NCBI RefSeq assembly: GCF_008704655.1
Contig: NZ_CP023688.1
Location: 1,674,001 to 1,738,000 of the forward strand
From: Streptomyces rimosus
GTDB lineage: Bacteria > Actinomycetota > Actinomycetes > Streptomycetales > Streptomycetaceae
Reading direction: 5' to 3'
Length of the DNA: 64,000 nt
Positions 8,571 to 17,733 of the stretch are shown piece after piece; the first letter of the stretch is position 1; every line of letters begins with the position of its first letter. The translations under genes and the position numbers were made by a program. The notes under the pieces were generated by a model that ran no database searches, had not been told where the DNA came from, and saw nothing but the letters and a program-made list of their open reading frames with translations.

Positions 8571-10691
8571 TCAGCGGGTTTTGTCCCGCACGGTGCCGTC
8601 GGCGGGCGGAAATACTTCGGGCCGGGGGCCTTCCGGCCGCAGTTCGTCCGCCGGGCCCCCGAGGGGTATCTGCGGCCCGTCCACCTCGCGCAGCCAGCGC
8701 CGCAGGACCGCGTGGACCTGCTCCGCCCCGGCCGGCTCCCGCCCGTCGGCGGCCGGCGGGGACAGTTCGGCGGGCCACAGCAGGAAGGGGCGGCTCTGCT
8801 CGCCGCCCAGTCCGCCGTGCGAGCCGATCTGCTCCTCGAAGGCGTGCACCGCGCCCGTCCGCGGGTCGCAGGCGGAGTTGACCATGATGTCGGCGGCGTG
8901 CGGGAAGCCGTCCGTGCGCCGCACGGCCTCCGCCGCGCCCGCACCGAACCCGGCGAGGGGGTCGCGGCCCACGATCCGGCCGCTGTCGAGGTGGTGTTCG
9001 GCGCCGTCCGGCCCGAGCACCACGGCGCCGTGCGCGGCGGAGCGTACGAGCAGGAAGCCGATGCCCGGGTGGTTGGCGAGGGTGGGCAGCAGCGCCGGGT
9101 GGCGGCGGTCGATCTCCTCGCGCGTCACCCGTCCGGGCAGGTCGGGGAAGGACACCAGGCCGAGATTCCCGGAGGCGAGCACGACGGGGTCGGAGGTGCC
9201 GCAGCCGTCCCTGCCCTCCGGGCGGTGCAGTGCGGCGCGGGCCGCCTCGCGCGCCTCCGCGCCGCTCGCGGACCGCCCGGCGCGCCGGGACACCGGCAGA
9301 CCGCAGCCCGCGCGCACCAGGTCCTCCAGCCCGAGTCCGTAGGTCTCCAGGAAGGTCGGTCCCGGGCTCTGGCCGTGGTCGGAGAGCAGCACGATCCGGT
9401 AGCGGCGGGGGGCGTACTGCGCGGCGTCGGCGATCAGGCCGACGGCACGGTCCAGGCGGCGCAGGACCTGGTGGGTGTCCCGGTGCCGGGGGCCGGAGTG
9501 GTGCGCGACCTCGTCGTACGCGACGAGGTCGGCGTAGACGGCCGTGCGGCCCGCGAGCAGGTCGCCGATCACGGCGGCGACCACGACGTCACGCTCGACG
9601 ACGGTCGCGAAGGCCCGGATGAAGGGGTAGAGGCCGCCGCGCTTCACCCGCGGGCGCTCCCCTCGGATGCGGGAGCGCAGGGACTGGCCCGTCTCCCGGA
9701 CGACCTCGGCGGCGAAGGAGACGGCCGTGCGGGTCGCGTTGGCCGGGTCGGAGAAGTACGCGAAATAGCCGGCGCGGGAGCGGTTGTGCCGGCCGCGGCG
9801 GGCGGCCACCGACATCACGAGCGCGAGCTGGTCGGCGCCGCCGCTGAAGAGGTTGCCGCGACTGGCGCCGTCGTAGCTCAGCAGCCCGGCGTCGCCCGTG
9901 CGGGCCACGGCGCGGCGCTGGAGCTCGGCCGCGCTGCTGGGCCGGTTGCTGACGATCAGCCGGCCGGTCTCCTTTTCGTACCACCGGAAGGCGGGCAGGT
10001 CGTGGTTGGTGCCGTGCAGCAGGGCGAGCTGGCTGGCGCCGGTCTGGCTGGACCAGTCCGTACGCCACGGGGTCAGCCGGTGGGTGCTGCGGAGCCAACC
10101 CGCGACCGTGCCCATCAGGGGCCGCTCGCCGGCCGTCGCCTCGCGCAGTACGTCGTGGCCCAGGCCGTCGAGCTGGAGGAAGACCGTGCCGGGCGCGACG
10201 GGGCCCACATCGCCGGGGGCGCCGCGGCGGCGGCCGTGCCGGCGTCCGGCCAGCCGCACCAGGCGTCTTCGGTACGCGTCGTCGTCGCGCACCGCGAGGA
10301 AGGTGGAGGTGGCGGAGGAGGTCGCGGACATCACGGCGGCCACGATCACCGCGGTCTCGGGCGCTGCCTGGCCGCCCTCGGGGATCAGGCCGAGGGCGAC
10401 CAGCAGCAGGGAGCCGTTCAGGAAGAAGACCAGCAGCCCGAGGACGAGGGCCGGCACCAGCAGCAGGGCCCGGACGAGCAGCGGCCACACCAGGGCGCCG
10501 AGCAGGCCGAAGGCGCCGGCGCCGAGCGCGGCGGTGAGGAAGGTCCGGGTGATGCTCTCACCGCTCGCGGACTGGAGGCGGAAGTCGGGGAGCACGGCGG
10601 CGAGCAGGAGCAGCGTCAGCGAGGACACCGCCCAGACCGCGGTCACCCGCAGCAGGGCGCCACCCGCCGTCCGCCACCGGGGCCGTCGCAT
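8571..10691 (-). CDS. Membrane-anchored alkaline phosphatase/phosphodiesterase-fold protein
   Basis: A 706-residue protein. The first ~130 residues hold four hydrophobic helices resembling the phage-holin 4_2 superfamily domain. The remainder is an alkaline-phosphatase-superfamily hydrolase: metal motif VFLQLDGLGHDVL near residue 170, a Ser/Thr in WSSQTGASQLALLHG, YADLVAYDEVAHHSGP, the metal motif LLSDHGQSPGP, and SHGGLGGEQSRPFLL at the end. It probably cleaves phosphodiester or sulfate esters at the membrane. It follows the promoter at 10748-10777 and lies 86 bp upstream of the permease on the same strand. Confidence 0.83.
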   Translation of the reverse strand: MRRPRWRTAGGALLRVTAVWAVSSLTLLLLAAVLPDFRLQSASGESITRTFLTAALGAGAFGLLGALVWPLLVRALLLVPALVLGLLVFFLNGSLLLVALGLIPEGGQAAPETAVIVAAVMSATSSATSTFLAVRDDDAYRRRLVRLAGRRHGRRRGAPGDVGPVAPGTVFLQLDGLGHDVLREATAGERPLMGTVAGWLRSTHRLTPWRTDWSSQTGASQLALLHGTNHDLPAFRWYEKETGRLIVSNRPSSAAELQRRAVARTGDAGLLSYDGASRGNLFSGGADQLALVMSVAARRGRHNRSRAGYFAYFSDPANATRTAVSFAAEVVRETGQSLRSRIRGERPRVKRGGLYPFIRAFATVVERDVVVAAVIGDLLAGRTAVYADLVAYDEVAHHSGPRHRDTHQVLRRLDRAVGLIADAAQYAPRRYRIVLLSDHGQSPGPTFLETYGLGLEDLVRAGCGLPVSRRAGRSASGAEAREAARAALHRPEGRDGCGTSDPVVLASGNLGLVSFPDLPGRVTREEIDRRHPALLPTLANHPGIGFLLVRSAAHGAVVLGPDGAEHHLDSGRIVGRDPLAGFGAGAAEAVRRTDGFPHAADIMVNSACDPRTGAVHAFEEQIGSHGGLGGEQSRPFLLWPAELSPPAADGREPAGAEQVHAVLRRWLREVDGPQIPLGGPADELRPEGPRPEVFPPADGTVRDKTR

Positions 10692-10845: not shown

Positions 10846-12000
10846 TCAGCCGCGCCCCGCGAACGGCACCTGCGCCTCGGCCGCCTCCGCCGGTTCCCCC
10901 TCCCCCGGCCACCGCCACAGCCCCGCCTCCGCCAGCCGCGGCAGCACGCCCTCCCCGAACCAGTACGCCTCCTCGACGTGCGGATGCCCGGAGAGGACGA
11001 ATTCCTCGATGCCGAGGCGGTGGTACTCGGCAATCCGCTCGGCCACCTCGGCGTGGCTGCCGACCAGGGCGGTGCCCGCGCCGCCCCGTACCAGGCCGAT
11101 GCCCGCCCAGAGGTTGGGCGCGACCTCCAGCCCGTCCGTGCTGCCGCCGTGCAGCGCCAGCATCCGCCGCTGCCCCTCGGACTCGCTGCGCGCCAGCCCC
11201 TCCTGTACGGCGCGCACCGTCTCCGGCGAGAATCCCGCCAGCAGGCGGCGTGCCTCGGCCCACGCGTCGTCGGCGGTGTCCCGGGTGATCACGTGCAGCC
11301 GGATGCCGAAGCGCACCGTGCGCCCGGCGTCGGCGGCCAGCTTCCGTATCCAGGTGATCTTCTCGGCCACCTGCTCGGGCGGCTCTCCCCAGGTCAGGTA
11401 CACATCGCTGAAGCGGGCGGCGACCTCGCCCGCCGCCGCCGAGGACCCGCCGAAGTAGACCGGCGGTACGGGGTCGGGGACACGGGCCAGCCGTGCCTGT
11501 TCGACGCGCAGGTGCTCCCCGTCGAAGTCGACCGTCCTCCCCTGCCACAGGTCCCGCACGATGCTCAGGAATTCGCCGGTACGGGCGTAGCGCGCGTCCT
11601 TGTCGAGGAAGTCGCCGTACGCACGCTGCTCGTGGCTCTCGCCTCCGGTGACGACGTTCAGAAGCAGCCGCCCCGGAGCGTGCCGCTGGAAGGTGGCCGC
11701 CATCTGGGCGGCGAGGGTGGGCGCGATGACGCCGGGCCGGAAGGCGACCAGGAATTTCAGGCGCTCGGTCTCCCGGGCGAGCATCGCCGTGGTGAGCCAG
11801 GCGTCCTCGCACCAGGCGCCGGTCGGGGTCAGCGCGCCCTCGAAGCCGAGTTGTTCGGCGGCGCGGGCGATCTGGGTGAGGTAGCCGAGGGTGGCGGGGC
11901 GCTGGCCGCCCGCCGCGCCGGCGGGCAGGCCGTGGCCGCCGCCGACGACGTGCCGGCTGTCGCCGTAGGTCGGCAGGAACCAGTGGAACGTGAGGCTCAC
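10846..12000 (-). CDS. ssuD: FMNH2-dependent alkanesulfonate monooxygenase
   Basis: A 384-residue bacterial luciferase-like monooxygenase. It follows the E. coli SsuD pattern closely from MSLTFHWFLPTYGD to VLSGHPHVEEAYWFGE, including the active-site cysteine in PTGAWCEDAW and FGIRLHVITRDT. It releases sulfite from an alkanesulfonate, giving an aldehyde. In this operon the likely substrate is methanesulfonate (MsuD role), though a broad SsuD range is possible. The start is GTG at 12000, 46 bp after SfnB. It is the last cistron of the sulfur operon. Confidence 0.92.
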   Translation of the reverse strand: MSLTFHWFLPTYGDSRHVVGGGHGLPAGAAGGQRPATLGYLTQIARAAEQLGFEGALTPTGAWCEDAWLTTAMLARETERLKFLVAFRPGVIAPTLAAQMAATFQRHAPGRLLLNVVTGGESHEQRAYGDFLDKDARYARTGEFLSIVRDLWQGRTVDFDGEHLRVEQARLARVPDPVPPVYFGGSSAAAGEVAARFSDVYLTWGEPPEQVAEKITWIRKLAADAGRTVRFGIRLHVITRDTADDAWAEARRLLAGFSPETVRAVQEGLARSESEGQRRMLALHGGSTDGLEVAPNLWAGIGLVRGGAGTALVGSHAEVAERIAEYHRLGIEEFVLSGHPHVEEAYWFGEGVLPRLAEAGLWRWPGEGEPAEAAEAQVPFAGRG

Positions 12001-12046
12001 GAGGTCTCCGGAAGCAAAGGAGGAAGGGGAACAGTGAAAAGGGGTG

Positions 12047-13264
12047 TCAGAGGAGGCCGTGCCGGGGTGGCCGGGTGCCGTTGAGGACGTACCGGCCGAG
12101 GTGCTGCACCTTCCAGCGCGCCGGGTCGTGCAGCGTGTGGGTCCGCGCGTCGCGCCAGTGCCGGTGCAGGTTGAGCCCGTCCAGCGCGGCCCGGGTGCCG
12201 GCCACTTCGAACAGGGCGCTGCCCGTCTCCACCGCCGTCTCCCCCGCGTACGCCTTCGCCGCGGCGACCGCGATCGACGCCTCGGCGGCGGTGTCGTCGG
12301 TGAGGCGGCCGGTGGCGGCGTCCACGGCGCGGGCCGCGGCCTCCAGGAGGGCCTGCGCGGCCCGGACCCGCAGTTCCAGTTCGCCGAAGCGCTGCACGAG
12401 CAGCGGGTCCTCGGCCGCCGTCGCGAAGCCGCTCTCGAACCACGGCCGGCTCTGCGTACGGACGAACTCCGCCGCTTCGGTCAGCGCTCCGCGGGCGATG
12501 CCGGTGTCGATGGCGGTGTGCAGCAACTGGGCGATTGCACCGTGCAGTTGCGGGCCCTCGAAGGTGAGGTGGTGCGGGACGACGCGGTCGGCCGGTACGG
12601 TGACCGCTTCCAGCCGGACGGTGCCGCTGGCGGTGGTGCGCTGCCCCATGCCGTCCCAGTCGTCGACGACGGTGACGCCGGGCGCGTCGCGCGGTACGTA
12701 CGCGACGTGCAGTTTGTCCCCGGCGCCGCGGGCCAGCACCGGAATCCAGTCGGCGAACAGGGCGCCCGTGGAGTAGTGCTTGGTTCCGGTCAGGACGTAG
12801 CCGTCCTCGGTGGGCTCCAGGCGGGTGCGGATGTCCTGGACGTGCCGGGTGCCGGCCTCAGACTGCGCGTTGCCGAAGCGGCGCCCGGCCAGCACCTCGC
12901 GGAAGAAGAACTCCCGCTGCCGGGAACTTCCCTGGGCACGCAGCACGTTGATGTACACGAAGTGGCTCTGCGGGATCTGCGCGAGGCTCGGGTCGGCTGT
13001 GGCGAGCAGCCGGAAGACCTCGGCCAGGGTCGCAGCCGAGACCTCGGCGCCGCCGTGGGCGCGCGGCACGGTGATCCCGAGCAGGCCGCTGGCCGAGAGC
13101 CGGTCGAGTTCGCGGCGCGGCAGCCGCCGCCGCGCGTCGCGTTCCGCCGCGCCGGGGCGGAAGGCGTCGGCCAGTTCGGCCGCGACGGCGCGTGCTTCGG
13201 CGTCGTCGGCGATGACGTGGGCCGTATCGGTCCGGGGCGTGGCGGGTCCGGTGGTGGTGGTCAT
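12047..13264 (-). CDS. sfnB: SfnB-family sulfur acquisition flavoprotein
   Basis: A 405-residue acyl-CoA-dehydrogenase-fold flavoprotein of the SfnB family. Characteristic stretches are ERDARRRLPRRELDRLSASGL (split across residues 40-60), GITVPRAHGGAEVS, and DPSLAQIPQSHFVYINVLR. Members take part in dimethyl sulfone and methanesulfinate use and act as flavin-dependent monooxygenases rather than dehydrogenases. It lies 18 bp after the FMN reductase gene. Together with the 13877-15094 product it is the best candidate for the methanesulfinate-to-methanesulfonate step (MsuC-like). Confidence 0.87.
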   Translation of the reverse strand: MTTTTGPATPRTDTAHVIADDAEARAVAAELADAFRPGAAERDARRRLPRRELDRLSASGLLGITVPRAHGGAEVSAATLAEVFRLLATADPSLAQIPQSHFVYINVLRAQGSSRQREFFFREVLAGRRFGNAQSEAGTRHVQDIRTRLEPTEDGYVLTGTKHYSTGALFADWIPVLARGAGDKLHVAYVPRDAPGVTVVDDWDGMGQRTTASGTVRLEAVTVPADRVVPHHLTFEGPQLHGAIAQLLHTAIDTGIARGALTEAAEFVRTQSRPWFESGFATAAEDPLLVQRFGELELRVRAAQALLEAAARAVDAATGRLTDDTAAEASIAVAAAKAYAGETAVETGSALFEVAGTRAALDGLNLHRHWRDARTHTLHDPARWKVQHLGRYVLNGTRPPRHGLL

Positions 13265-13282
13265 GTGCGTACCCCTGCCGTC

Positions 13283-13837
13283 TCAGCTCGCGGCAGCGAG
13301 CAGCGGGGCTCGGCCGAGGGCGCCGGAGAACTGGTCGAGGACCTGGTGAAGGGCTTCGGCGGTGCCCTGCTCGATGCCGAGCGTGCCGTCTTCGCGCACG
13401 TCGAGCTGCCGGTCCAGGACGAACCAGCCCTGGACGATGTGCGCGGCGCCCATGGAGGAGAGCACCGGCCGCAGCGCGTAGTCGATGGCCAGGACGTGCG
13501 CCGTGGTACCGCCGGTGGCCAGCGGCAGCACGGTCTTGCCCGCCAGCGCGTACTGGGGCAGCAGATCGAGCAGCGACTTGAGGATCCCCGAGTAGGCGGC
13601 CTTGTAGACGGGAGTGCCGATGACCACGCCGTCGGCCCGCGCGAACAGCTCGGTGGCGGCGACGATGTCGGGGTGCTGGAAGTCGGCGCCGAGCAGCGCG
13701 TCGGCGGACAGCGTACGGACGTCGAGTTCGACGACGCGGTGGCCTTCGGCGGTGAGCCGGGCGTCCAGGTGGCGCAGCAGGCGGGCGGTGCGGGAGGTGG
13801 CGGAGGGGCTTCCGGAGACGGACAGGACGGTGGGCAT
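13283..13837 (-). CDS. NAD(P)H-dependent FMN reductase (SsuE/MsuE-like)
   Basis: A 184-residue flavodoxin-like reductase. The N-terminal phosphate-binding loop is SVSGSPSATSRT and the second signature is GVVIGTPVYKAAYSGILKSLLDLLP. It supplies FMNH2 to the two-component monooxygenases encoded on both sides. ATG 13837 is preferred over an in-frame GTG at 13846 because GAGGTGA sits at proper spacing before the ATG. It lies in the middle of the operon with gaps of 39 and 18 bp. Confidence 0.9.
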   Translation of the reverse strand: MPTVLSVSGSPSATSRTARLLRHLDARLTAEGHRVVELDVRTLSADALLGADFQHPDIVAATELFARADGVVIGTPVYKAAYSGILKSLLDLLPQYALAGKTVLPLATGGTTAHVLAIDYALRPVLSSMGAAHIVQGWFVLDRQLDVREDGTLGIEQGTAEALHQVLDQFSGALGRAPLLAAAS

Positions 13838-13876
13838 GGCGGTCACCTCGGGGGTCGGTGAGAGCGGGAAGGGCGG

Positions 13877-15094
13877 TCAGGAGTACCAAGTGGGGGTGGG
13901 CAGTTCGCCGATGAGGACATGGCGGCCGACTTCCCGCCTCTTGTACGCCACCGGGTCATGAAGGGTGTGCGTGCGCACATTGCGCCAGAAGCGGTCCAGG
14001 CCCTCGGCCGTGGCGGTGGAGCGGGCGCCGGTAGCCTCGAAGATCCGGCTGGTGACCTCCAGGGCCACGTCGGTGGCGTGCGCCTTGGCCGCGGCGACGC
14101 GTACCTCGAACTCGCCGCGGTCCCGCTCGGTCACCGCGTCGGGGTCGTCGTGCAGCCGCTGGCCCTCCTCGGCGACCCGGTCGGCGAACGCCTGGGCCGC
14201 CCACAGGCGGGTGGTCAGGTCGCCGTAGATGTCGATGATGTACGGCTCGTCCACGGCCCGGTCGTGGCCGCCGTGCAGCCAGGGGCGGGTGGTGTTGCGG
14301 GTGTAGCCCGCCGCCGTCTCCAGGGCGCCCGCGGCGATCCCCAGGTAGAAGTTGACGAACACCAGCTGGATGGTGGGCACGTTGAGGGTGTTGTAGACGC
14401 GCGGCCGGAACGTCTTGTCGACATAGCCCGCCGCGCTCCCCCAGCCCACGCGGACGTTGTCGAGGGTCACGCCGCCGCTCTCGGTGAGCCGCTGGCCGAT
14501 GTTGTCCCAGTCGTCGTGGAAGGCCAGCCCCTCGCTGTCGGAGGGCACGATGGCGAAGACATGATCGTCGGTGCCCTCCAGGACGCCTTCGAGCACGGTG
14601 ACGTCGGAGACCTTGCTCCCGGTGGAGAAGGACTTGCGGCCGCTGAAGGCCAGCGTGTCGCCCTCGTCCCGTACGACCACGTCGGCGTCGCGCGGGTTGA
14701 CGGCGCCGCCGAAGAACCACCGGTTGCGCGCCGCCTCGGCCTCGACGTGCTCCCACTGCTCGCGGGTGCCGACCAGGCGGGCCGCCCAGTTCCACAGGTA
14801 GTGGTAGCCGAGCAGCTGCGCGATCGAGCCGTCGGCCTTGGCGACTTCGCGTACGACCTGGTAGGCGGTGGTCCAGCGCTGTCCGCCGCCTCCGTGTGCG
14901 GCCGGGCCGAGCAGGGTGACCAGGCCGGAGTCCTTCAGGAGTTGCACCTCGGCGTACGGGGTGGCGCCGGCCCGGTCGCGGGCGGCGGCGTCGGTGGCGA
15001 GGATCGCGGCGACCTCGGTGGCGCGGGCTATCCATGCGTCCGCGTCGGTGGGGGCGGGCCGGGACTGCCAGGTGGTGGGGGCCACGGCGCTCAT
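13877..15094 (-). CDS. SfnC/DszC-like flavin-dependent monooxygenase
   Basis: A 405-residue acyl-CoA-dehydrogenase-fold protein related to SfnC, MsuC and dibenzothiophene monooxygenase DszC. Supporting stretches are VVREVAKADGSIAQLLGYHYLW, GRKSFSTGSKVSD, DDWDNIGQRLTESG and HTLHDPVAYKRREVG. These enzymes use FMNH2 and O2 to add oxygen to sulfur. Within this operon methanesulfinate is a sensible substrate. ATG 15094 has GAAGGAGAG upstream. It lies 49 bp after sfnG. Confidence 0.85.
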   Translation of the reverse strand: MSAVAPTTWQSRPAPTDADAWIARATEVAAILATDAAARDRAGATPYAEVQLLKDSGLVTLLGPAAHGGGGQRWTTAYQVVREVAKADGSIAQLLGYHYLWNWAARLVGTREQWEHVEAEAARNRWFFGGAVNPRDADVVVRDEGDTLAFSGRKSFSTGSKVSDVTVLEGVLEGTDDHVFAIVPSDSEGLAFHDDWDNIGQRLTESGGVTLDNVRVGWGSAAGYVDKTFRPRVYNTLNVPTIQLVFVNFYLGIAAGALETAAGYTRNTTRPWLHGGHDRAVDEPYIIDIYGDLTTRLWAAQAFADRVAEEGQRLHDDPDAVTERDRGEFEVRVAAAKAHATDVALEVTSRIFEATGARSTATAEGLDRFWRNVRTHTLHDPVAYKRREVGRHVLIGELPTPTWYS

Positions 15095-15143
15095 AAGGCT
15101 CTCCTTCGTATGTCGGTGGTTGCGGGCGGGTACGGGGGGGCGG

Positions 15144-16280
15144 TCAGGCGACGACGGCAGCCGGGGGCCGCGGCCGCGCGTCCGGCTCCTGGGCCTCCAG
15201 CTCGCGTACGAGCGGCAGGACGCGCTTGCCGAAGTACTCGACCTCCTCCAGGTAGTGCAGGAAGCCGAGCAGGAAGAGGTCCACGCCGAGGCGCTTGTAG
15301 GCGACGATGCGTTCGGCGATCTGTTCCGGGGTGCCGATCAGCCCCGTACGGAACCCGTCGTTGTACTGCACGAGGTCCTCGAACGACGAGTCCTGCCACA
15401 TGCCCTTGCCGTCGGCGGTGGAGCGGCCCGCCTGCCGCACGGCGTCCGAGAAGCCGTGTACGGCCTCGGTGTCCGCCTTGGCGACGATCTCCCGCAGCAC
15501 CTCGCGGGCCTCCACCTCGGTGTCGCGGGCGATCAGGAAGCCGTTCAGTCCGAAGCGGGGCGCGGGCCGTCCGGCCGCGGCGGCCGAGGCATGCACGTCG
15601 TTGAGCTGTTCGGTGACGCCCGCGAAGTCCTTGCCGTTGCTGAAGTACCAGTCGGAGACCCGGCCCGCCATGGCGCGGGCGGCGGTGGAGTTGCCGCCCT
15701 GGAAGATCTCCGGGTGCGGGCGCAGCGGGGAGGTGACCGGCTTGGGCTTGAGCGAGAAGTCGCGGATCCGGTAGAAGTCGCCGGCCAGCCGCGCGCGGTC
15801 CTCGGTCCAGATGCCGCGCAGCGCGGTGATGAACTCCTCGGCCCGCCGGTAGCGTTCGTCGTGCTCCAGCCAGGGCTCGCCGAGCGCGGTGAACTCGCCC
15901 TTGAACCAGCCGCTGACGACGTTGACCGCGAACCGGCCGCCGGACAGCTGGTCCGCGGTGGCGCCGAGTTTGGCCAGGACGCCGGGGTGCCAGAGCCCGG
16001 GGTGGACGGCGGCGATGACCTTCAGACGCTCGGTGGCGAGCAGCAGCGCGAGGCTGAAGGAGGTGGACTCGTGCTGGTACTCGGCGCCGTAACTGGCCAT
16101 GTAGCGGACCTGGGTGAGCGCGTAGTCGAAGCCGTTGCGCTCGGCCAGGACGGCCAGTTCGCGGTTGTATTCGTAGCCCCAGTCGGTGCGCTGCTCGATG
16201 GTGCTGGTGACGAGGCCGCCGCTGACGTTGGGCACCCAGTAGGCGAAGCGCAGCGGGTCGAAGGCGGGCGGGACGGGCAT
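15144..16280 (-). CDS. sfnG: FMNH2-dependent dimethyl sulfone monooxygenase
   Basis: A 378-residue luciferase-like monooxygenase of the SfnG type: FDPLRFAYWVPNVSGGLVTS, LKVIAAVHPGLWHPGVLAKLGATA (in two parts), NVVSGWFKGEFTALGEPWLEHDERY. SfnG converts dimethyl sulfone to methanesulfinate and formaldehyde. ATG 16280 is chosen because GGGAG lies six bases upstream. An in-frame ATG at 16346 has no binding site and falls inside a hairpin. It is the first enzyme gene of the operon, 222 bp after the leader peptide. Confidence 0.9.
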   Translation of the reverse strand: MPVPPAFDPLRFAYWVPNVSGGLVTSTIEQRTDWGYEYNRELAVLAERNGFDYALTQVRYMASYGAEYQHESTSFSLALLLATERLKVIAAVHPGLWHPGVLAKLGATADQLSGGRFAVNVVSGWFKGEFTALGEPWLEHDERYRRAEEFITALRGIWTEDRARLAGDFYRIRDFSLKPKPVTSPLRPHPEIFQGGNSTAARAMAGRVSDWYFSNGKDFAGVTEQLNDVHASAAAAGRPAPRFGLNGFLIARDTEVEAREVLREIVAKADTEAVHGFSDAVRQAGRSTADGKGMWQDSSFEDLVQYNDGFRTGLIGTPEQIAERIVAYKRLGVDLFLLGFLHYLEEVEYFGKRVLPLVRELEAQEPDARPRPPAAVVA

Positions 16281-16337
16281 CAGGTACTCCCGGTGGGTCT
16301 GGGCGGGCAGGGGGAATTGCGGCATCGGCCGGGACGT

Positions 16338-16469
16338 GCATTCCATGCGTTTCGGAATGCGGAAATCAGCGCACGGACATGGCGAACAGGAGACGTGGCG
16401 AACCGGCCGTTACAGATGGCATGACGGGAAATCCGGAAGGTTCCGGAAAAAGATCAACCGGCTCGCCGG
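16338..16469 (-). promoter_or_regulatory. Candidate attenuator region between Cys leader and sfnG
   Basis: Three inverted repeats lie in the leader-to-sfnG gap, in transcript order. CCGGC/GCCGG (16469-16458) is followed six bases later by five T residues (16451-16447). CCGGAA/TTCCGG (16446-16433) follows directly. GCATTCC/GGAATGC (16360-16338) has a 9-nt loop. The first stem plus U-tract resembles a weak intrinsic terminator. The layout suits translation-coupled attenuation, but folding competition was judged by eye only. Confidence 0.4.
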
Positions 16470-16502
16470 AAAACCGTCGGAGTATCCGGAACGGTGGCGT
16501 CC

Positions 16503-16589
16503 TTACCGGCCGGCGCGCCGACACAGGGCGCTGGAGACCCGTACGAGGTCCACATGACGGCGTTGTGTGAGCTGCCCGAGCTTCTTCAT
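16503..16589 (-). CDS. Cysteine-containing leader peptide of the sulfur operon
   Basis: A 28-residue ORF, MKKLGQLTQ... ending VSSALCRRAGR, preceded by a near-perfect GGAGGTG seven bases before ATG. It resembles the short actinobacterial leader peptides (RxxVDLxRVxxxLCR) found upstream of sulfur-assimilation operons, for which ribosome stalling at Cys is known to control downstream genes in mycobacteria. The single Cys codon is TGT, uncommon in this genome, followed by two Arg codons. It should sense Cys-tRNA supply. It is the first cistron of the operon, divergent from lysR. Confidence 0.85.
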   Translation of the reverse strand: MKKLGQLTQRRHVDLVRVSSALCRRAGR

Positions 16590-16809: not shown

Positions 16810-17733
16810 GTGCGAATAGAACAACTGGAATATCTGGCGGCGGTCACCCGGCTCGGGTCGCTGCGCCGGGCCGCCGAGGAGCTGCATCTGTCGCAGCCGG
16901 CGCTGAGCGAGACCGTCCGCAACCTGGAACGGGAGCTGGGCGTGGGGCTGCTGGACCGCAAGCGGTCCGGGGCGAAGATCAGCGACGAGGGGCGGGAGCT
17001 GCTGCCGCACATCGCCGGGGTGCTGGACGCGGTCGACCGGCTGCGCCGTGCGGCCGACGACCAGCACCAGGTCAGCCGGATGGTGCGGCTGGGCACGGTC
17101 AACGCGGCCACGGTCCCGCTGCTCGTCCCGGCCGTCCGGGAGTTCCGCGCCGCGCATCCGCTGACCCAGGTGGAGGTGGTCACCGCCCAGCAGGACGCCA
17201 TCCAGCAGGGCCTGATGGAGGGCGGGTTCGACCTCGGGCTGGTCAACTACCTGCGGGGCGACGACCTGCCGCCCGGCCTGCACACCACCGAGCTGCTGCG
17301 CGGGCGCCCGGTCGTGTGCGTGCGCCCGGACAGCCCGCTGGCGGCGCTGGAGTCGGTCACCGTCGCGGACCTGCTGGCCGAGCCGCTGATCGTGATGCGC
17401 TCGGGGTACGTCATGCACCGTTACGTCCACCGGCTGCTCCGGGGCCGTACACCGTCCTTCTCGTACTCGACCGACGGCGCGGAGATGGGCAAGCTGATGG
17501 TGGCCGAAGGGCTCGGCGCCACCGTACTGCCCGACTACAGCGTGCTCGGCGATCCGCTGGAGCGCAGCGGGGCGATCACCTGCCGTCCGCTGGCGGACGA
17601 CGCCACCGAGGTGCGCATGGTGATCCAGCGGCGCCGCGCCGGCTCGGTGCCCCGGGCGGCCCGGGATCTGCACGCGATCTTCGTCCGGCGCGCCGGGGAG
17701 CCGCCGCACCGGGGCACCCGGGCCGACGCGTGA
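16810..17733 (+). CDS. LysR-family regulator of the sulfur operon
   Basis: A 307-residue LysR-type regulator: winged HTH at residues 1-60 (LEYLAAVTRLGSLRRAAEELHLSQPALSETVRNLERELG) and a periplasmic-binding-like effector domain after residue ~90. It is divergent from the Cys leader and sulfone/sulfonate operon, so a CysB/Cbl-like role sensing sulfur status is the natural inference; the sequence alone does not name the effector. The GTG start at 16810 has GGAGGC upstream. Confidence 0.88.
   Translation: MRIEQLEYLAAVTRLGSLRRAAEELHLSQPALSETVRNLERELGVGLLDRKRSGAKISDEGRELLPHIAGVLDAVDRLRRAADDQHQVSRMVRLGTVNAATVPLLVPAVREFRAAHPLTQVEVVTAQQDAIQQGLMEGGFDLGLVNYLRGDDLPPGLHTTELLRGRPVVCVRPDSPLAALESVTVADLLAEPLIVMRSGYVMHRYVHRLLRGRTPSFSYSTDGAEMGKLMVAEGLGATVLPDYSVLGDPLERSGAITCRPLADDATEVRMVIQRRRAGSVPRAARDLHAIFVRRAGEPPHRGTRADA

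Follow-up and report, generated by a model that had tools for sequence, protein, structure and literature searches.

A leader peptide with a near-invariant UGU cysteine codon precedes a predicted dimethyl sulfone-to-sulfite operon in Streptomyces rimosus

Mycobacterial polycysteine upstream open reading frame (uORF) attenuators were reportedly described by Canestrari in 2020. Two such elements, Ms5788A and Ms4527A, precede sulfur or cysteine genes (PMC4633059, available text in part), and in the Pseudomonas sfn/msu pathway (SfnG, MsuC, MsuD and MsuE) several monooxygenases depend on a single reductase (PMC8234197 and PMC13352529, likewise in part). Here we describe a locus that holds relatives of both systems, namely an operon of Streptomyces rimosus at positions 10846–16589, on the minus strand, of a 64,000-nucleotide stretch of DNA (the whole of which is called the window below). 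Its enzyme families and predicted reactions are those of the Pseudomonas pathway, and its leader peptide has a homologous RRxVDLxRV core and stands, like the mycobacterial uORFs, before sulfur genes. We consider it fairly probable that this is a leader-controlled sulfur-scavenging operon that would be induced at low cysteine. Unlike in Pseudomonas, where sfn and msu form separate clusters, a single leader-led operon is found here, with SfnB included, a LysR-type gene in place of SfnR and an MsuC-like gene that is optional. Unlike the mycobacterial attenuators, the leaders hold about two cysteines each (251 in 130 leaders) rather than a run, their invariant cysteine is nearly always encoded by UGU, and they occur before the sfn operon. 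In its enzymes the operon follows an established pathway, arranged as is common in actinobacteria; the novelty lies in the comparative evidence that singles out the core flavoprotein and in the almost exclusive use of UGU in a genome-wide leader family.

Another actinobacterial relative is the Gordonia cluster in which an LLM oxidoreductase, SfnG and SfnB lie together (PMC9861168 and PMC11852219, in part). As described in the available text, that cluster has a TetR neighbour and no MsuC-like gene or SsuE, unlike the S. rimosus operon, and our locus leader search found no leader at the G. alkanivorans locus (L089).

The sequence-only reading had listed six co-directional cistrons (leader, SfnG, an SfnC/DszC-like protein, an FMN reductase, SfnB and SsuD); all were present on the minus strand, the third encoding a DszC/MsuC-type flavoprotein, the fourth SsuE and the last an SsuD/MsuD-type enzyme, in an order that recurs in Streptomycetaceae loci, and its broader claim of a leader-preceded operon leading from organosulfur compounds to sulfite was supported by profile families and solved relatives. 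The product of sfnG (15144–16280), a dimethyl sulfone monooxygenase dependent on reduced flavin mononucleotide (FMNH2), scored 622 bits with TIGR04021 (curated cut-off 383) and 517 bits with the solved dimethyl sulfone monooxygenase PDB 8t0u. SfnB (12047–13264), of the group D flavin monooxygenase family, reached 571 bits with TIGR04022 (cut-off 431), and SsuE (13283–13846), an NADPH-dependent FMN reductase, 224 bits with TIGR03567 (cut-off 164). The SsuD/MsuD-type alkanesulfonate monooxygenase (10846–12000) fell below both SsuD cut-offs (464 against 518 bits for TIGR03565; 473 against 510 bits for NF001939). It matched PDB 7jv3, which we take to be MsuD, at 412 bits and E. coli SsuD (1nqk) at 389 bits; by homology only, it would work like SsuD/MsuD. 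The remaining flavoprotein (13877–15094), a group D flavin monooxygenase that is probably an accessory methanesulfinate monooxygenase and is called MsuC-like below, reached no NCBIfam cut-off (302 against 850 bits for DszC, NF043015; 268 against 431 bits for SfnB), and its best solved relatives were DszC (3x0x, 278 bits) and the methanesulfinate monooxygenase MsuC (6u76, 275 bits).

Gene content was counted at the best 80 of 586 SfnG relatives, a sample skewed to close ones (49 of the 80 are Streptomycetaceae, and the closest named locus is that of S. rimosus, 98% in SfnG), and covered genes on the strand of SfnG within a range that opened 2.5 kb before it and closed 5 kb after it. SfnG, SsuE, SfnB and the SsuD-like gene occurred together in all 46 intact Streptomycetaceae loci (L041, L054 and L061, cut by contig ends, were excluded); 27 of these had the full five-gene order and the other 19 lacked the MsuC-like gene only. 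SfnB accompanied the SsuD-like gene in all 60 loci of the 80 that bear the latter and was present without SsuD in range in five (L069, L076, L081, L093 and L096), and six loci outside Streptomycetaceae (L074, which sits on a 5.8-kb contig, L078, L086, L090, L092 and L095) had SfnG and the MsuC-like gene with no SfnB or SsuD in range. Among 71 Streptomyces genomes, SfnG was present in 18 and the MsuC-like gene (at least 82%, E up to 1e-70, weaker matches being excluded) in nine, all SfnG-positive, leaving nine of the 18 without it at this threshold; one of the latter (G055) has a 39% relative elsewhere in the genome. SfnB was found in all 18 of these (in G049 and G067 as two pieces with a frame change) and in five SfnG-negative genomes. 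The same leader also heads SfnG-negative loci, followed by SfnB and the SsuD-like gene (L186), by SsuE, SfnB and the SsuD-like gene (L187), or by these three with an internal stop in SfnB (L189); no leader was seen in the SfnG-negative loci L188 and L190, both at contig edges. In these counts the MsuC-like gene mostly appears where SfnG does, and SfnB where SsuD does; on this pattern SfnB would be the core enzyme and the MsuC-like one an accessory. Two different flavoproteins are present, as had been read from the sequence, but they are not equal partners. Two observations weigh against so clean a split: an MsuC-like fragment is present in one genome in which no SfnG was found (G001, 79% complete), and an extra acyl-CoA-dehydrogenase-fold gene beyond SsuD in L018, L019, L026, L037, L191, L192 and L194, 34–47% like the MsuC-like protein, might stand in for it. 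SfnB itself is interrupted by an in-frame stop in L189 and by a frame change in L191 and L192, through decay or sequencing error.

In the pathway that we propose, SsuE would make FMNH2 for four monooxygenases, SfnG would split dimethyl sulfone into methanesulfinate plus formaldehyde, oxidation of the methanesulfinate to methanesulfonate would be aided by the MsuC-like enzyme, and the SsuD/MsuD-like enzyme would free sulfite. SfnB would be a broader S-oxygenase that most likely feeds in sulfone made from dimethyl sulfide (DMS) or dimethyl sulfoxide (DMSO) and may also take over the sulfinate step in operons that lack MsuC. Three group D enzymes of the same fold class (Dms1–Dms3) oxidize DMS and DMSO in Acinetobacter baylyi, where two of the DMS/DMSO enzymes have adjacent genes and the reductase that feeds them also serves SfnG-type and SsuD enzymes (PMC13352529, in part). 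By analogy SfnB may be of the same kind and act before SfnG rather than on sulfinate, in which case the pathway would begin with DMS or DMSO. That Dms1, Dms2 and Dms3 belong to TIGR04022 is only suggested, by two SfnB loci that are neighbours in A. baumannii (ABUW_2335/2336; PMC12892962, in part). The earlier proposal of two substrates or a division of labour between the flavoproteins would need changing, with SfnB possibly working upstream of SfnG. In the source genome another leader of the same family precedes an SsuC-like permease, and some 3 kb past that leader is a second SsuD-like gene, which likewise scores below cut-off; from its position we suggest that imported sulfonates are dealt with at that site, whereas the sfn copy would act on sulfonate formed within the cell.

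Other explanations of these enzymes have to be weighed against this pathway. Both SfnB and the MsuC-like protein match generic Pfam acyl-CoA dehydrogenase domains, as they would if they were ordinary acyl-CoA dehydrogenases and the operon assignment a profile artefact. However, in the profile check proposed by the sequence-only reading neither best-matched a true acyl-CoA dehydrogenase family (NCBIfam profiles and solved structures), SfnB exceeded its own cut-off, and among solved structures both were nearest DszC/MsuC-type monooxygenases, with which they have in common the histidine of GYH/QSH, the [ST]G motif and THxLHDP, residues that matter for catalysis. Their linkage in the intact Streptomycetaceae operons (SfnB in 46/46, the MsuC-like gene in 27/46) also speaks against plain dehydrogenases, and we regard that explanation as very improbable. 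Less easily dismissed, though still unlikely in our judgement, is that sulfinate is oxidized mainly by SfnB and not by the MsuC-like protein, whose gene would be accessory for other substrates. The constant pairing of SfnB with the SsuD-like gene, which persists without SfnG, would fit such a role, as would the absence, at E 1e-70, of the MsuC-like gene from half of the SfnG-positive genomes and the low kcat of A. baylyi MsuC, whose deletion caused no significant growth defect (PMC13352529, in part). On the other hand, solved MsuC is nearer to the MsuC-like protein (275 bits) than to SfnB (168 bits), and reports cited in the same partly available paper have methanesulfinate oxidized by FMNH2 without MsuC, in which case no replacement oxidase would be needed. 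The retention of SfnB with SsuD behind the leader in the absence of SfnG would also be odd were its sole job to make dimethyl sulfone; this tells against our pathway in its narrow form and argues for a wider role. Such SfnG-less operons, together with the MsuC-like protein being as near DszC as MsuC, could point to longer alkyl or aryl sulfones, sulfinates and sulfonates as the substrates, dimethyl sulfone being incidental; Gordonia sfnB has been linked to dibenzothiophene, with a 312-fold rise by quantitative reverse transcription PCR, yet the log2 value in the table is negative (PMC11852219, in part). The closeness of SfnG to 8t0u and its score far over the TIGR04021 cut-off stand against incidental use of dimethyl sulfone, and we hold this last explanation to be distinctly improbable. 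The proposed pathway keeps SfnB as a broad S-oxygenase, and natural operons, of which some have both SfnB and the MsuC-like gene, some only SfnB of these two and some no SfnG, offer a genetic handle on the function of the SfnB family.

The leader peptide is encoded by an open reading frame (ORF) of 28 codons, MKKLGQLTQRRHVDLVRVSSALCRRAGR (16503–16589, minus strand), with a Shine–Dalgarno sequence, GGAGG, upstream by eye. It scored 38 bits with NCBIfam NF042934 (cut-off 27) and 37 bits when the source genome (9.36 Mb, one contig) was searched. A homologous leader preceded SfnG in all 50 Streptomycetaceae sequences, the S. rimosus window included, and the leader core was present in 59 and absent from 22 of 81 sfnG sequences. 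NF042934 matched all 41 sampled Streptomyces genomes (3–13 matches each), none of 14 control genomes, and nine of 119 Actinomycetota genomes, three of those nine being Streptomyces. The sequence-only reading had given the operon a leader of its own; the leader is instead one of six in the source genome, all before sulfur or cysteine genes, namely a CysO-like (ThiS-family) protein with cysteine synthase, the sfn operon, a nitrite/sulfite reductase, cysteine dioxygenase with a rhodanese, a rhodanese-type sulfurtransferase and the SsuC-like permease (only the cysteine synthase subfamily passes an NCBIfam cut-off, the others being named by Pfam or similarity). In other Streptomyces the same leader family was also seen before sulfatase-type genes (L138 by profile; L150 and L151 by protein similarity). 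The leader weakly matches NF042933 and NF042936 as well, and the wider leader class includes polycysteine leaders that share its core (L197, L198 and L207). Cysteine leaders have been reported in Mycobacterium, Propionibacterium and Bifidobacterium (PMC1262725, in part), and none of the eight leaders reported from S. lividans is for cysteine in the available part of PMC8079986. Among the matches listed from the open-access literature (titles and starts of abstracts), no prior work on this leader or on the UGU bias in Streptomyces was found.

The invariant cysteine was encoded by TGT in 126 of 130 distinct leaders (TGC in L082, L083, L137 and L142) and in all 50 Streptomycetaceae sfnG leaders; in the window this codon lies at 16521–16523. 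The other cysteine codons of the same 130 leaders were TGT in only 25 of 121 cases (Fisher 7e-40, a value that overstates independence, the sampled leaders being related by descent), and those of the operon and LysR genes in 14 of 147. The invariant aspartate and histidine of these leaders showed no such preference (GAT 17/130; CAT 34/126), and a silent change from TGT to TGC should be common in a GC-rich genome if it were free. Among 24 further loci outside the 130 leaders, partly from the same places, TGT was found in 21 of the 22 with the invariant cysteine (L204 and L220 are not leaders, and L203 has TGC). The leaders L126–L185 were picked from the NF042934 matches listed for part of the 41 genomes; a cysteine at codon 17 was required for the 95-locus leader set, and duplicates were removed for the terminator and codon counts. 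The two TGC leaders among those 95 stand before a dicarboxylate-type symporter (L137) and before what by eye is a winged-helix-like protein (L142). The peptide itself appears to be under constraint, since the invariant arginine, histidine and aspartate of the core are kept as amino acids through many synonymous codons. A serine bias at codon 13 (AGY in 100/103) was set aside as a signal because no single silent step joins AGY and TCN and common descent may explain it.

The nearly exclusive use of TGT at the invariant cysteine, set against the other cysteine codons, suggests that the leader is a cysteine-sensing relative of the mycobacterial polycysteine attenuators. It would sense charged Cys-tRNA, with ribosomes slowing at the single rare UGU codon and the nascent peptide RRHVDLxRVSS partly holding them there; the slowed ribosome would then cover the 5′ arm of a hairpin starting at about UGU, so that sfnG is expressed. 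Alternatively, UGU could be kept for a reason at the RNA or DNA level, such as pairing or a protein site, rather than to slow the ribosome as a sensor. It is the identity of the codon, beyond that of the amino acid, that is conserved, and the last base of UGU is paired in the predicted fold of the window, both of which would suit such a reason; but the codons after UGU vary (CGC, CCG, TGC, TGA and ACG), no extended motif was noticed around it, and it lies outside the hairpin arms in a 24-sequence clade of sfn leaders, and we judge this alternative unlikely. A more far-reaching reading of the Streptomyces-wide leader set, which we hold to be less likely than not, is a cysteine sensor made of a conserved nascent peptide and one wobble-decoded UGU; it would be a mycobacterial polycysteine attenuator recast in the manner of an arrest peptide, and one large clade would add a two-hairpin leader RNA in its sfn operons. 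If true, Streptomyces in general would gauge cysteine supply, in controlling sulfur uptake, by a single synonymous codon. One leader copy weighs against sensing of starvation as a general rule: that at G000:C1:2539824 (L004) precedes the degradative cysteine dioxygenase and a rhodanese, which fits control by cysteine starvation badly, and starvation induction hence does not explain every copy.

The evidence for the RNA part of the proposal is uneven. In the 24-sequence clade the hairpin starts within the last codons after UGU, with conserved arms and variable loop lengths; 93.8% of cells were paired against 25–47% when slid, a figure inflated because 22 of the 24 sequences were chosen by arm pattern and two added. 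An unselected 5′-arm pairing test over 50 sfn leaders gave a mean z of −0.91, control positions giving −0.11 (n = 43) and −0.08 (n = 31). Between leader and sfnG there is a second region, in many cases centred on GAATTC, for which the mean z was −1.38 at the sfn loci (34% below −2), GAATTC being found 54 times in the sfn spacers against 3.3 expected (34/50 loci). In many of these spacers it forms an inverted repeat before sfnG, CGCCtGAATTC...GAATTCGGCG (e.g. L035, L050 and L056), and it is absent from the spacer of the S. rimosus window, where the inverted repeat GCATTCC-N9-GGAATGC (16338–16360, minus strand) occupies the site of the relatives' second hairpin.

Several results tell against the switch. 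The predicted hairpin of the window (16458–16521, minus strand), whose 5′ arm runs from the last base of UGU through the leader end, was at −30.8 kcal/mol no better than shuffles (z −0.82; z +0.12 in the 5′-arm test), and the region before sfnG folded no better either (z +0.48). Covariation in the clade was weak, with two pairs changed on both sides (50 of 500 shuffles as high; 73 of 500 for the score), and the 5′-arm signal was missing in 82 other leaders (mean z −0.19). Intrinsic terminators after 141 distinct leaders were no commoner than in shuffles (58 observed, 55 expected), and sequestration of the sfnG Shine–Dalgarno sequence was unsupported (mean z +0.13, n = 50). With terminators and sequestration unsupported and the hairpins of the window like shuffles, we put forward an RNA switch downstream of the leader as a hypothesis only. 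Pairing of leader codons 2–4 with the 3′ arm of the hairpin, considered as an antiterminator, was unsupported and by eye not universal, and an Rfam search returned nothing at the gathering threshold. The window has one terminator-like match at 16459–16476 (0.4 expected in shuffles) and a five-U run 3′ of the leader hairpin (16447–16451, minus strand).

Transcription of the operon is taken to be set by the divergent LysR-type regulator (16810–17733, plus strand; Pfam HTH_1 and LysR_substrate), which was divergent in 47 of the 49 Streptomycetaceae loci among the best 80. We know of no use of sigma-54 by streptomycetes, and the absence of an SfnR-type sigma-54 activator, noted in the sequence-only reading, is for that reason uninformative. 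The start of sfnG is most likely at 16280, judging from a Shine–Dalgarno sequence, GGGAG, at 16287–16291 and an ATG 11 codons before FAYWVPN, and that of SsuE is more likely the ATG at 13837, as read from the sequence. In three Microbispora loci (L069, L072 and L084) the arrangement differs, the MsuC-like gene lying on the opposite strand before LysR–SfnG–SfnB and so falling outside the same-strand counts. An ORF of 706 amino acids adjoins the S. rimosus operon (window positions 8571–10691, minus strand); it had no Pfam match at 1e-8 and, among the best 80 of the 586 sfnG loci, was matched (95%) only in L017.

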